The position numbers and the translations under genes were made by a program. DNA of 64,000 nucleotides from an uncultured Methanobrevibacter sp. Lineage in GTDB: Archaea > Methanobacteriota > Methanobacteria > Methanobacteriales > Methanobacteriaceae. Under the pieces are notes generated by a model. That model saw nothing but the letters and a program-made list of their open reading frames with translations, ran no database searches and was not told the DNA's origin. The DNA lies in assembly GCF_902769175.1 (NCBI RefSeq), contig NZ_CACXNW010000015.1:62001-126000 (forward strand), written 5' to 3'. Below are positions 15,732 through 58,310 of the stretch, one piece after another. The number at the start of each line of letters is the position of its first letter. Position 1 is the stretch's first letter.

Positions 15732-16565
15732 CTAAATTAAAGGACTAGGATGCCTGGAGTTTCCTGTTTTCTTTTTAGGACCTCCAATCTTATCTAATCT
15801 TAATTTAATAAATTCTTCTCCTTTTTCACTTGCAGCAAAAATTGGAATTGAGGTTCCCACTCTAAAAATGTCCTCTTCATCACCAATATCCCGTAAATGT
15901 TTTGAAGCACAGGCAGTGACTACATCACATACATCAAAGTGAAGCTCAGATTCATCTCTTGTCAATCCAGTTGAATGAACTCCAAATATATAAACATTCA
16001 CATCATCATATTCCTTTTCCAATTCCCTAAGAATTATTCCATCATCTGGATGACAAATGGTTACTGCAATATTCTTATATCCATTTTCAATAGCTAATCT
16101 AAATCCTTCCACTTGATCTATGGAAGCATTCTCCTCATCAAGAACATGATTTGGAAGGAACTGTTCTATAAGCTCTGGTATTGGACTAGTTTCAACAAGC
16201 CCAGAAACTCTTCCACCTACACCTTGAGCCAATTCACTTTCAGTGACAAGTACGGTTCCACAGCCTTCACAGACCATAACCACACAATCGATTAGATTTT
16301 CATCAAGCAAAGTGGATAATATTTCAGAAATACCAAAGGATAAAAAGTCCTTTAACCTTAATACCCTATCCTTAGTGCACATTCCAAAGTCATCTATTCT
16401 AAATTGAATATTCTTTTCTATTTCATCAGGAGTTAACTTCTCAATTCCCCGGTGCTTATGAAACAAAGGACAGTATTCAATCTTAGGCTCTCCTACATCT
16501 ACCACTTTTCCATCTTGAACTGTTATTCTAGCTCTTCCCAAAGCTTCAATTACATGCTTATCCAT
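15732..16565 (-). CDS. Methanogenesis marker protein 8 (DUF2099 family)
   Basis: A 277-residue cytoplasmic protein found, as far as I know, in essentially all methanogens and annotated as putative methanogenesis marker 8. Visible features are a cysteine-bearing start (KIEYCPLFHKHRG, DFGMCTKDRV), a MVCEGCGTVLVTESELAQGVGGRVSGLVETSPIP core, and CDVVTACASKHLRDIG. The CEGCG and CxxA cysteines could bind a metal or cluster. Biochemical function is not established; coenzyme M reductase maturation or related roles have been proposed for such markers. GGGAT lies just before the ATG, and a 14-bp perfect palindrome lies about 26 bp upstream. Its 5' side faces the hairpin-rich 1-kb spacer. Confidence 0.85.
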   Translation of the reverse strand: MDKHVIEALGRARITVQDGKVVDVGEPKIEYCPLFHKHRGIEKLTPDEIEKNIQFRIDDFGMCTKDRVLRLKDFLSFGISEILSTLLDENLIDCVVMVCEGCGTVLVTESELAQGVGGRVSGLVETSPIPELIEQFLPNHVLDEENASIDQVEGFRLAIENGYKNIAVTICHPDDGIILRELEKEYDDVNVYIFGVHSTGLTRDESELHFDVCDVVTACASKHLRDIGDEEDIFRVGTSIPIFAASEKGEEFIKLRLDKIGGPKKKTGNSRHPSPLI

Positions 16566-16590: not shown

Positions 16591-16604
16591 TTAACAATTG
16601 TTAA
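16591..16604 (-). promoter_or_regulatory. Perfect 14-bp palindrome before the marker 8 gene
   Basis: TTAACAATTGTTAA is a perfect palindrome 26 bp upstream of the marker 8 start, in a position fitting a repressor site near the transcript start. It shares TTAAC half-sites with the dyads before marR and the universal stress gene. Confidence 0.4.
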
Positions 16605-16778
16605 ATTTTTAAAACTTATACTTAATTTATTTCTTATTAAATAAATAGGTTTTTAAAAATTAAAAATTTTTTTGAAAATATTGAATAAATAGGATCTTGA
16701 AAATTAAAATCCTTATGAAAATAAAAAAAGTGAATTGATGATAAATGAAAAATTAATAAAAAAAGAAAATCTGGGAGA

Positions 16779-17300
16779 GTAATGAATTAAAGATAGACAA
16801 GGTATGAGAAAATCTATTCTTTAATTCATTACAACTTTAATTACAAATGTTTTTTTGTTGTAGTTTTTTTAGGTTTTAATATATGAAATATATTAAACAT
16901 GATATATAGAGGGGTAATGAATTAAAGAAAGACAAAAGATATGAAACGATCCATTCTTTAATTCATTACAACCTATTTAGGCATATTTTTTTGAGTTTTT
17001 AGTTTTTAATATATGAAATATATTAAACATGATATATAGAGGGGTAATGAATTAAAGATAGACAAAAGGTATGAAAAAATCTATTCTTTAATTCATTACA
17101 ACCTAAATTCAGGTATATTTTTTTGAGTTTTTTGGGTTTAATATATGAAATATTAAATATGATAAATATAGAGGAGTAATGAATTAAAGATAGACAAAAG
17201 GTATGAAAAAATCTACTCTTTAATTCATTACAACATATTATAGGTGTTTTTAGTGTTTTATTGTTTTAGTTTTTTAAAGGTTTAATATATGAAATATTAA
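16779..17300. repeat. Four ~131-bp tandem units, each with a 19-bp hairpin and an AT palindrome
   Basis: Hairpins at 16779-16832, 16914-16969, 17044-17099 and 17176-17231 share GTAATGAATTAAAGA at the left and TCTTTAATTCATTAC at the right, extended by TAGA/TCTA in most copies; the ~17-nt loop contains GGTATGA. Starts are 135, 130 and 132 bp apart. Each hairpin is followed on the + strand by a T-rich tract (TTTTTTTGAGTTTTT) and then by a palindrome of the form TTTAATATAT-GAA-ATATATTAAA (shorter in copies 3 and 4). The order hairpin-palindrome repeats four times. Promoter-like palindromes plus hairpins plus T tracts suggest tandem small transcription units, direction unresolved. All four loops also contain a 6-codon frame (MKKSIL-like), possibly chance. 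Confidence 0.8.
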
Positions 17301-17364
17301 ATATGAATATTTTTTATTTTATAGCGTGACATTAATTTTGTATTTTCTAATAGATTATCCCAGC

Positions 17365-17487
17365 TTATAACGTTTTATAATGGATTAAATCTTTAAAACT
17401 ATAATGTTTCTATAGTTTTATAATCTCAGCCTATAATGTTTTTATAGGTTTTTTAGCCCCATTCTATAATGTTTCTATAGAATAGGG
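17365..17487. ncRNA. Candidate structured element: hairpins with a shared loop and different stems
   Basis: Three hairpins have the loop ATGTTT(C/T) closed by CTATA/TATAG but different outer stems: 17394-17420 (10 bp, TAAAACTATA/TATAGTTTTA), 17428-17450 (AGCCTATA/TATAGGTT with one G-T pair) and 17457-17487 (ATTCTATA/TATAGAAT extended by CCC/GGG with one mismatch). A smaller TTATAA-type dyad sits at 17365-17380. Stem change with retained pairing suggests selection for structure. The element lies about 130-250 bp downstream of cdc48 and would be in a long leader of marker 8 if transcribed leftwards. Confidence 0.5.
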
Positions 17488-17591
17488 CAGAGACGATTTA
17501 AATGTTTTGACTTTATTTATAGTGTGTAAATGTTTGTGTTTCTGTGATTTAATTTAAGGATTAATCAAATATGATTAATCACGGAGGAAAA

Positions 17592-17646
17592 AAGTGATGA
17601 AGGTTGGTCCAATTAGTAGTATTGGACCAAACCTTCTTCATCACTT
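17592..17646 (-). terminator. Long hairpin overlapping the cdc48 stop codon
   Basis: The last codons of cdc48 ([11 protein letters not shown]) pair with the sequence immediately after the stop: 22 pairs with a 1-base and a 3-base bulge and a 7-nt loop containing the stop codon. On the coding strand it is followed by TTTTTT, so it looks like an intrinsic terminator formed partly by coding sequence. Confidence 0.6.
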
Positions 17647-19823
17647 ACGGCTTTTGGCTTTACCTTATCCATAGCTTCATCGAAGAATTTAGCTGAGACT
17701 TCAGTGGCTTCAATGTTTTCTCTTAAAGCGAGCATTGCAGCTTCACGACATACAGCTTCAATGTCTGCCCCAACATATCCTTCGGTGTTTTTAGCCAATT
17801 TCTTAAGCTTTACATCTTTTGCAAGAGGCATGTCTTTAGTATGAACTTTGAATATTGCAAGTCTTGCATCTTCATTTGGAGTGTCGACCTTAATGTGTCT
17901 GTCAAATCTTCCAGGCCTCATGAGACCAGGATCAATAATGTCTGGTCTGTTGGTAGCTGCAATGATTGCAACATCCTCTAATTCTTCAAGACCATCCATT
18001 TCAGTTAACAATTGATTTACGACACGTTTGGTTACTCCAGAATCTCCAAATTCACCACCTCTGTTGCTTGCAATTGAATCAATCTCATCAAAGAAGATTA
18101 CAGTAGGAGCAGTTTGTCTTGCTTTTCTAAAGACTTCCCTTACTCCTTTCTCAGACTCACCAACCCATTTGGACAAGAGTTCAGGTCCTTTGATTGCAAT
18201 GAAGTTAGCTTCACTTTCATTTGCTACAGCCTTTGCAAGCATGGTCTTACCAGTACCTGGAATACCATACAATAAGGTACCTTTAGGTGGCCTTACGCCA
18301 AAGTCCTTAAATTTGTCTGGGTATTTAAGTGGCCATTCAACAGCTTCCTTCAATTCTTGTTTAGCTTCGTCTAATCCACCAACATCATCCCAGGTAACAT
18401 TTGGAACTTGTACAAGAACTTCCCTAAGTGCTGAAGGTTGGATTTCCCTAAGTGCAGACTTAAAGTCATCCTTAGTTACTACAAGCTTTTCAAGGACTTC
18501 AGGAGGAATCTCATCATCGGCACCTAAGTCAGGAATGATTCTTCTTACAACTCTCATAGCTGCTTCCTTAGCTAACGCTTCAAGATCTGCACCTACAAAT
18601 CCATGAGTTGTATCTGCTAACTCATTTAAGTCAACATCTTCTGCAAGAGGCATTCCTCTTGTGTGGATTTCCATGATTTCCTTACGTTCTTCCTTATCAG
18701 GTACGCCGATTTCAATTTCACGGTCAAACCTACCAGGTCTTCTTAATGCACCATCAAGGGAATCTGGTCTGTTTGTTGCACCGATTACAACCACTTGGCC
18801 TCTGGAATTAAGTCCATCCATTAAGGTCAATAGCTGTGCAACAGTTCTTCTTTCCACTTCACCTTGAGTTTCTTCACGTTTAGGTGCAATAGCATCCAAT
18901 TCATCAATAAAGATGATAGATGGAGCATTTTCTTCAGCTTCTTCAAAGAATTCCCTTAGGTTTTCTTCAGATCCACCTACATATTTGCTCATGATTTCAG
19001 GACCATTGATTACAATGAAGTGTGCATCACTTTCGTTTGCTACAGCCTTTGCAAGCAAGGTCTTACCAGTACCTGGAGGTCCATGCATCAATACTCCTTT
19101 TGGAGGAGCAATACCTAACTTATCAAATAATTCCGGTTTTTTAAGAGGAATTTCAATCATTTCTCTGACCTTTTTAACTTCCTCTTTCAAACCTCCAATG
19201 TCATCATAACTAATATCTACAAGATTGGAGACACCTTCTAATTTAGAAATATCAACAGGCTCTTCATTGACTTCAACTTTAGTATTTGGACCTACTTTCA
19301 CTACCCCTCCAGGGTTAGTGTTTACAACAGCCAATTTGATTTGGCTCATTGCACCAATTCCAGGACCATTCATGAAATCATCAAAGATATCATCAAATAA
19401 GCCTCCACTAACAGATCTTCTTGGAGTGGTTTTGATTCCAGTATTGATTAAGTCACCTTGGACCATCACTTGATTTCTAAATGCGCTATTTAAGTCTCCA
19501 CTAATTCTGATTCTTGCATCAATAGGAGCTAGAACAATTTTTTTAGCTTCTTTTGCTTCCACTCTTTTGATTGTTACCTCTTCACCTATTGAAGCACCTG
19601 AATTCTTACGTGTGGTACCATCAATCCTAATGATTGATTCCATATCAGATTGAGAAGCAATTGCAATAGCTGCAGTATGTTTTGATCCAATGATTTCAAT
19701 TAAATCTCCATCTTTAAGACCTAATTTAAACATAGATTCCATATCTAGTTTAGCAATATTTTTACCTACATCCTTTTGAGATAATGTTTCTGCAACTTTA
19801 ATTTTAAGTTCTACATCAGCCAT
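17613..19823 (-). CDS. cdc48: CDC48/VCP (VAT) AAA+ ATPase
   Basis: A hexameric unfoldase that remodels proteins for degradation by the proteasome. The 736 residues comprise an N-domain (about 1-190), D1 with Walker A GPPGTGKT, Walker [15 protein letters not shown] and the arginine-finger region RRPGRFD, then D2 with [22 protein letters not shown] and a second RPGRFD. The last residues QYY put Tyr at the penultimate position but Gln rather than a hydrophobic residue before it, so this is not a perfect proteasome-docking HbYX tail. I start at the ATG at 19823, nine bases after AGGAG; the TTG three codons upstream is too close. It is a single gene with an elaborate upstream region. Confidence 0.97.
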
Positions 19824-19895
19824 GATCTTCAACTCCTTTTAGTTTTTTTTAAGTAATAATAATTAATATGAATTTGATTTGAAATAGATAAATAC

Positions 19896-26972: not shown

Positions 26973-27029
26973 ATAATAACCTCAATAAAAATAAATCCTC
27001 AATTTCTTAATAAAATAGTAAATTAATAA

Positions 27030-27269
27030 TTAATAATTAATAAATTAACAACCAGTAAATCAACAATCAATAAACCGATAAATAACAAATTAACAATTAG
27101 TAAAATAATAATTAATAAACTGACAATCAGTAAATCAACAATCAATAAACCGATAATCAACAAATTAACAATTAGTAAAATAATAATTAATAAACTGACA
27201 ATCAGTAAATCAACAATCAGCAAATTAATAATTAATAAACTGACAATCAGTAAATTAACAATTAGTAAA
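27030..27269. repeat. 15-bp minisatellite, 16 units, with 75-bp higher-order period
   Basis: Sixteen 15-bp units fitting NNNAYAATYARTAAA. Five unit variants follow in order and the order then recurs (27090-27164, then 27165-27239 with slight change), giving a 75-bp second-order period. It lies between the mtnP 5' side and the rtcB 3' end. A left-facing open frame reads Leu/Ile/Val repeats but is only a by-product of the 15-bp unit. Confidence 0.9.
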
Positions 27270-27317
27270 TTTTATTTAATATAAAAAAAATTTAAAAAAA
27301 AATAAAAAGGACAAAAA

Positions 27318-58086: not shown

Positions 58087-58310
58087 AAAATCACACTAAA
58101 ATAATAACTAAATAAAGAACATATTACCTTAAACTAAATCACACTAAAATAATAACTAAATAAAGAACATATTACCTTAAACTAAAAGAACATATTACCT
58201 TAAACTAAATCACACTAAAATAATAACTAAATAAAGAACATATTACCTTAAACTATATTGCACTAAAATAATAACTAAGTTAAGAATATATTACTTTAAA
58301 CTAGTAGATA
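58087..58310. repeat. 48-bp tandem repeats upstream of the second symporter gene
   Basis: Units containing TCACACTAAAATAATAACTA begin at 58091, 58139, 58210 and (diverged) 58258. The 71-bp step includes an extra 23-bp partial unit. They fill most of the spacer behind nhaC, directly adjoining the symporter start. Confidence 0.85.

Follow-up and report, generated by a model that had tools for sequence, protein, structure and literature searches.

The LhrC RNAs of Listeria are described as multicopy RNAs whose redundant CU-rich motifs bind lapB mRNA (PMC4132741). In archaea, the efficacy of termination is reported to be set by the terminator U-tract and aCPSF1 (PMC8716108), and the core of the anti-Shine-Dalgarno sequence is given as CCUCC (PMC10783764). 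Antisense reads of M. smithii genes have been reported; the passages concerned do not mention cdc48 (PMC4555090). Among the papers listed in a limited search of open-licence literature, no title or start of an abstract described the element analysed here or any small RNA from Methanobrevibacter, and we found no open-licence papers on methanogenesis marker protein 8, the product of a gene that flanks the element.

Our subject is an array of four hairpins in the 64,000-nucleotide stretch of DNA that we analysed as a whole (hereafter, the window), which belongs to the 3.12-Mb draft assembly of a gut methanogen of the genus Methanobrevibacter. The array partly fills the 1047-base gap between cdc48 and mmp8, both of which lie on the minus strand. 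It is probably an RNA element, as yet uncharacterised, with a role in regulation or in end formation. In the direction from cdc48 to mmp8 the features are as follows.

17613-19832, minus strand: cdc48, CDC48-family AAA ATPase (coordinates from the first listed start; the ATG of MADVELK is internal)
17594-17644, minus strand: hairpin HP1, terminator-like, overlapping the cdc48 stop codon (partly by inspection)
17583-17591, minus strand: TTTTCCTCC, 3' of HP1
17234-17256, minus strand: leader motif ACACTAAAAACACCTATAATATG, with small changes in most single-copy relatives and decayed ahead of copies 1-3
17176-17231, minus strand: hairpin copy 4, the first in this direction, which retains the leader motif of the single-copy relatives
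17170-17174, minus strand: CCTCT tag 3' of copy 4
17044-17099, minus strand: hairpin copy 3
17038-17042, minus strand: CCTCT tag 3' of copy 3
16914-16969, minus strand: hairpin copy 2, inner stem altered, folding retained
16908-16912, minus strand: CCTCT tag 3' of copy 2
16875-16897, no strand assigned: AT palindrome separating copy 1 from copy 2 (three more lie at 17005-17027, 17137-17157 and 17281-17301)
16779-16832, minus strand: hairpin copy 1, the last in this direction
16758-16764, minus strand: seven T 3' of copy 1, a candidate transcript end
15732-16565, minus strand: mmp8, methanogenesis marker 8 (DUF2099), the next gene on the same strand

The four hairpins, 54-56 nt long with starts spaced by 135, 130 and 132 bases, are real and beyond chance. 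Tandem Repeats Finder gives the array a score of 660 (period 130, 3.5 copies). The observation of the earlier note, four near-identical hairpins at a spacing of 130-135, is confirmed. A pattern of perfect 15-nt arms occurs four times in the whole assembly, always in the array, and TTTAATATATGAAATAT, sought with up to 2 mismatches, occurs four times in 64 kb, each time exactly (0.29 expected). When folded as RNA, the hairpins do better than dinucleotide shuffles on both strands, with z of -4.3 to -6.3 on the minus strand and -2.1 to -4.6 on the plus strand. Compared copy with copy, the hairpins show 1-6 differences in 54-56 aligned positions (and 0-2 gap columns), and the spacers 9-30 differences in 71-75 aligned positions (and 2-9 gap columns), as counted from an automatic alignment in which the spacers may be misplaced. 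The spacers belong to the repeated unit of about 130 bp and recur along with it, which rules out a CRISPR array, just as the earlier note had held. Its further claim, that each unit has a palindrome, stood in part: the palindrome is 23 nt and whole in two copies and 21 nt in the other two, none lies left of the first hairpin, and no hairpin lies right of the last palindrome (17281). Copies 3 and 4 share the loop ACCTTTT, whereas the loop of copy 2 is TCTTTT and that of copy 1 ACCTTG; copy 1 also has CTCTCCC in place of the CCTCT tag.

Other structures were noted in the window. Three small hairpins, built around CTATAGAAACATTATAG and unlike one another in their outer stems, lie between cdc48 and the array (17383-17480); the genome nearest by mmp8 identity (G006) has three like them in the same gap. 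Just upstream of mmp8 is a TTAACAATTGTTAA palindrome (16591-16604), whole or nearly whole in most relatives in the genus, which is a possible candidate operator near the mmp8 start site. A long tandem repeat (15, 30 and 75 bp) lies between two genes at 27007-27271, and near-perfect 48/71-bp tandem repeats lie between genes at 58088-58303.

Searched as DNA, one unit matched ten further genus genomes strongly (E 1.2e-10 or better), in all ten between cdc48 and mmp8, and weak matches (E up to 1) came from all 19 genus genomes. The window genome, the ten strong matches and two genomes added by synteny (G003 and G014) form an element-bearing set of 13, in which a motif-based expression finds one hairpin in the cdc48-mmp8 gap of 12 genomes and four in that of the window genome. 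A covariance model run on 138 family genomes (E up to 0.01) matched 13 of the 19 genus genomes, once each apart from four matches in the window genome; bearing in mind that the model was built from 16 hairpins of those same 13 genomes, these matches confirm copy number and place and are not an independent discovery. The earlier note had looked to such a search of Methanobrevibacter genomes: with 13 of 19 matched and the stem pairing kept, loss of the unit or of its pairing in relatives did not occur. A single weak match outside the genus (G120, E 0.005) has a different sequence context and was set aside as chance. The genus genomes in which the model found no match are G009, G010, G011, G012, G013 and G018; the G018 contig stops 234 bases beyond the cdc48 match, and an mmp8 match is absent in G012 and G018. 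We rejected a mobile hairpin element, given one match per genome at one locus, except for the four tandem copies here, and the confinement of the perfect-arm pattern to the array. In the same cdc48-mmp8 gap of G010 and G011 (loci L039 and L040) there is another hairpin, of the type AGATAAA...TTTATCT, possibly a diverged counterpart of the array hairpin.

The stem alignment supports a structure that has been maintained through paired changes. In this alignment 97.2% of cells are paired, a value reached by 2 of 500 shuffles; 4 of 18 stem pairs have changed on both sides (reached by 6 of 500), double-changed cells number 8 (reached by 0 of 500), and 9 of the 18 pairs are invariant. The number of stem pair types is equalled by 40 of 500 shuffles. 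Sliding the pairing by -1 column also yields 4 double-changed pairs, but with fewer double-changed cells (5) and only 51% pairing. The paired changes in relatives bear out the earlier note's reading of the unit as an RNA-type hairpin. Furthermore, when the stem is read on the minus strand, five pair columns contribute 10 G.U cells and A.C cells are absent (the sequences counted are related, not independent), and the same G.U cells become mismatches when read on the plus strand. Of the 16 hairpins, 13 have a T-run of at least 6 within 45 nt of their 3' side when read on the minus strand, namely copy 1 and all 12 single copies; on the plus strand, 5 of the 16 do. Among the four array copies, a long T-run follows only the last copy on the minus strand; since T-runs are absent after copies 2-4, the array looks like one four-hairpin stretch that ends behind copy 1. 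Taken together, the wobble pairs (G.U without A.C), the U-tracts and a CCUCY tag favour the minus strand, which is the direction of cdc48.

That tag is strand-specific: on the minus strand, 12 of 16 hairpins have CCTC[CT] in the 14 nt that follow, and on the other strand 0 of 16 do. Among the 16 hairpins checked, it is absent after copy 1 and after those of G001, G003 and G014. A CCUUUU loop is present in 11 of 13 genomes; G003 and G014 do not have it, and nor do array copies 1 and 2. We scanned 34 gaps between cdc48 and mmp8 across the family, 11.1 kb in all (L146 and L148 are identical), and counted 54 CCTC[CT] on the sense strand versus 1 [AG]GAGG. Behind 48 window genes, a chosen subset of the window's open reading frames taken to at most 400 bases each (11.7 kb, a limit that excludes the array's own tags), there are only 3 CCTC[CT], one of them behind cdc48, and on this count we rejected a general CCUCC signal behind all genes. 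An automatic hairpin finder, which missed the bulged hairpins of the window's genus, placed 30 of the 54 motifs directly after a hairpin (6.2 expected). In the 14 gaps of the window's genus, 27 motifs were counted: the main hairpin precedes 12 of them, HP1 precedes another 12, and 3 lie at other places. Ahead of each hairpin on the plus strand (e.g., 17170-17182) we also noted an AGAGG-like site followed by a two-codon start-stop frame (ATG-RAT-TAA), which recurs in most relatives and probably reflects no more than the complementary sequence of the CCTCY tag and stem.

Similar modules occur in a second genus of the same family, here called g9. We examined 22 g9 loci upstream of mmp8: in 12, HP1 precedes a hairpin (for example GGGAAAGATACAGAAATCTTTCCC) that is closely followed by CCTCC, and three of those 12 have a second hairpin whose tail is CCTCC, CCTCT or ACATC. 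Two others have only HP1 and CCTCC, four are without the tag, and in four the cdc48-mmp8 pair was not seen whole; at least 4 of the 22 have neither tag nor second hairpin. Most g9 hairpins in the cdc48-mmp8 gap are followed by ACCUCY, and their sequence differs from that of the window-genus hairpin. A g9-hairpin pattern gave 77 matches in 45 of 137 family genomes (reversed control, 19), among which, by eye, 38 are of the cdc48 type (in 35 genomes, all g9) and 20 belong to a different conserved sequence, GGGAACTT...GTTCCC...TACCTCC, located elsewhere. A second conserved inverted repeat with tag, of the type GGGAACTTCAAGTCTTGTTCCC...TACCTCC, was seen by eye at other places in about 20 g9 genomes (e.g., G073:C4:309375-309404) and might be coding. 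In nine distinct 24-nt g9 forms (one register-dependent), all nine pairs are kept, with paired changes at three positions, and 12 distinct forms of 21 and 24 nt contain 5 G.U (two of which depend on the register of one hairpin) and 0 A.C. An automatic count gave 13 G.U versus 19 A.C; it took in loop positions and misregistered forms. An alignment of the g9 hairpins mixed stem registers.

We also chose 12 g9 loci in which mmp8 is not adjacent. In 12 of 12 the hairpin lies directly behind cdc48, in sense; mmp8 is farther off, on the opposite strand in 11 and outside the fetched stretch in the twelfth. By inspection, 7 of the 11 readable loci have tandem hairpin pairs, and many g9 HP2 and HP3 hairpins are followed by ACCTCCA with no U-tract. 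As the hairpin stays behind cdc48 even where mmp8 is not next, cdc48 is the constant neighbour. Judged from sequence, the two genera share position, strand, tag and tandem habit; homology of the hairpin sequences is not claimed.

These loci bear on two explanations that look to mmp8. The first, a regulatory leader of mmp8 (a riboswitch or attenuator), draws on the element's place upstream of mmp8, in the same direction, in 13 genus loci. We consider it very improbable and rejected it, given that in g9 a TATA-like box seems, by inspection, to sit between hairpin and mmp8, and that mmp8 is on the opposite strand in 11 of the 12 selected loci. According to the second, the hairpins are a DNA element, protein-bound inverted repeats upstream of the mmp8 promoter; the earlier note had likewise offered a protein-binding array. 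The outer stem sequence is highly conserved in the genus and the arms make a dyad, which speaks for it, yet the G.U-type cells occur in one strand sense only, the tag is strand-specific, the arms stand about 25 nt apart, and the g9 hairpin stays with cdc48 where the next gene is not mmp8. The G.U cells and the strand-specific CCUCY tag make protein binding less likely, and we regard the DNA element as improbable.

The earlier note had also suggested four separate small-RNA genes with the TATA-like palindromes as promoters. In this explanation each unit would be an independent sRNA gene acting in trans, an arrangement to which several features lend themselves: cdc48 has its own terminator-like hairpin, the ACACTAAAAACACC leader is conserved in most species, and in some species an AT palindrome lies upstream of the hairpin. 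However, by a strict pattern the palindrome is found in only 5 of 13 element-bearing genomes, the leader is decayed ahead of copies 1-3, and the long T-run follows the last minus-strand copy only. Moreover, a matrix made from eight tRNA promoters scored every site in these gaps, whichever the strand, at 10.7 or lower, versus 15.5-20.6 for six of its eight training promoters; the other two training rows scored 9.2 and -2.7 (the latter misregistered), so that the matrix is crude and the test weak. The suggestion of four separate genes did not hold up in these comparisons, and independent sRNA genes are in our estimation unlikely. A target search with the leader complement matched 12 of 19 genomes, often in the element itself, and found no more than a reversed control. 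Rfam release 15 has no family above its gathering cut-off in the window; at a relaxed threshold, the gap gives 4 matches, all to MIR1507, at 18-24 bits versus a cut-off of 73.

There remain the six-codon frames on the plus strand (MRKSIL, MKRSIL, MKKSIL and MKKSTL) to which the earlier note drew attention. They are indeed present in all four copies, but they are not conserved in relatives, whose frame is shifted or lost: from the same ATG, G005, G015 and G017 read MKNLFFNSLRTL and G002 and G004 read other peptides, while other relatives lack the ATG. We rejected such peptides, whose chance of being real we put at next to nothing.

The closest rival, and one with a substantial minority share of the probability, holds that these are 3'-end modules: tandem hairpins and U-tracts would terminate cdc48 transcripts or protect them and would keep read-through out of the next gene, and CCUCY would belong to the end-forming signal. 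HP1, which overlaps the cdc48 stop, is followed in the window by a T-run and CCTCC, and 12 of the 13 element-bearing genomes have both in the 135 bases that follow cdc48 (the exception is G017). The strand bias of the T-runs (13 of 16 hairpins in sense versus 5 of 16 on the other strand) suits this explanation too, as does the part reported for the U-tract and aCPSF1 in archaeal termination efficacy (PMC8716108). Set against it are the array copies 2-4, which have no U-tract, the many g9 HP2 and HP3 hairpins that end in ACCTCCA without one, and the scarcity of CCTCY behind other window genes. In addition, a conserved stem sequence is not known to be required by archaeal U-tract terminators.

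The explanation that we prefer, tentatively and at somewhat less than even chance, is that a hairpin-CCUCY RNA module belonging to the cdc48 3' region, on the minus strand, has been amplified locally to four copies and would act by pairing with Shine-Dalgarno sites. It is supported by the position, the single copy in relatives, the kept pairing, the strand-specific tag and the similar, often tandem modules of g9. We infer both the transcription of the module and its action by base-pairing. The module would be made on the minus strand, either within the cdc48 3' region or as a small RNA released from it. Its exposed CCUCY tag, together with the CCUUUU loop, would cover Shine-Dalgarno sites, either that of cdc48 itself (in the window's genus, cdc48 has a site of the AAAAGGAG type) or those of other mRNAs; the hairpin would protect the RNA, and extra copies would raise the dose. 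Several points count against this explanation: no strong promoter was found; HP1 with its T-run may end the cdc48 mRNA ahead of the array; the tag or the CCUUUU loop is absent in the copies and genomes named above; half of the stem pairs are invariant, and the shuffles and the shifted pairing match part of the covariation; the leader complement did no better than its control; and in g9 the automatic G.U count went the other way and at least 4 loci have neither tag nor second hairpin.

A bolder hypothesis, which we think has only a slim chance of being right, starts from what we take to be a resemblance between the hairpin-CCUCC module and the 3' end of 16S rRNA (a helix, then the anti-Shine-Dalgarno tail). 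Repeatable modules of this kind behind cdc48 of gut Methanobacteriaceae would imitate that end and compete either for Shine-Dalgarno sites or for ribosome factors, and their copy number would be adjusted through tandem amplification; they would then be a new kind of archaeal translation-control RNA. The module itself is conserved and clade-limited, and its arrangement is new. If it is transcribed as proposed, gut and rumen methanogens would possess an uncharacterised RNA element tied to cdc48, whose function could be tested directly by way of the natural copy-number series (one, two and four modules).

Among known systems, LhrC1-5 of Listeria are similar in that a hairpin RNA is present several times over and carries CU-rich motifs, both in its loops and where it is single-stranded (PMC4132741); the array likewise has four hairpins, with CCTCT after three. 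As described, motifs of the LhrC1-5 type block translation by binding Shine-Dalgarno sequences (PMC4132741), and the proposed module would work in the same way; we do not claim membership of that family. The LhrC1-5 RNAs are bacterial, comprise five experimentally shown sRNAs and use UCCC motifs (PMC4132741), whereas the array is archaeal, tied to the cdc48 3' region and known from sequence alone. Another methanogen RNA that acts on mRNAs is sRNA162 of Methanosarcina mazei, which is characterised and has known targets (PMC3510493); it is by this description that we set it beside the array. Lastly, U-tracts are common to archaeal terminators that work with aCPSF1 (PMC8716108, PMC7515710), to the single hairpins of the relatives and to the last array copy. 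The module is unlike those terminators in its conserved stem sequence, its CCUCY tag and its tandem copies, and in the many g9 hairpins that have no U-tract.
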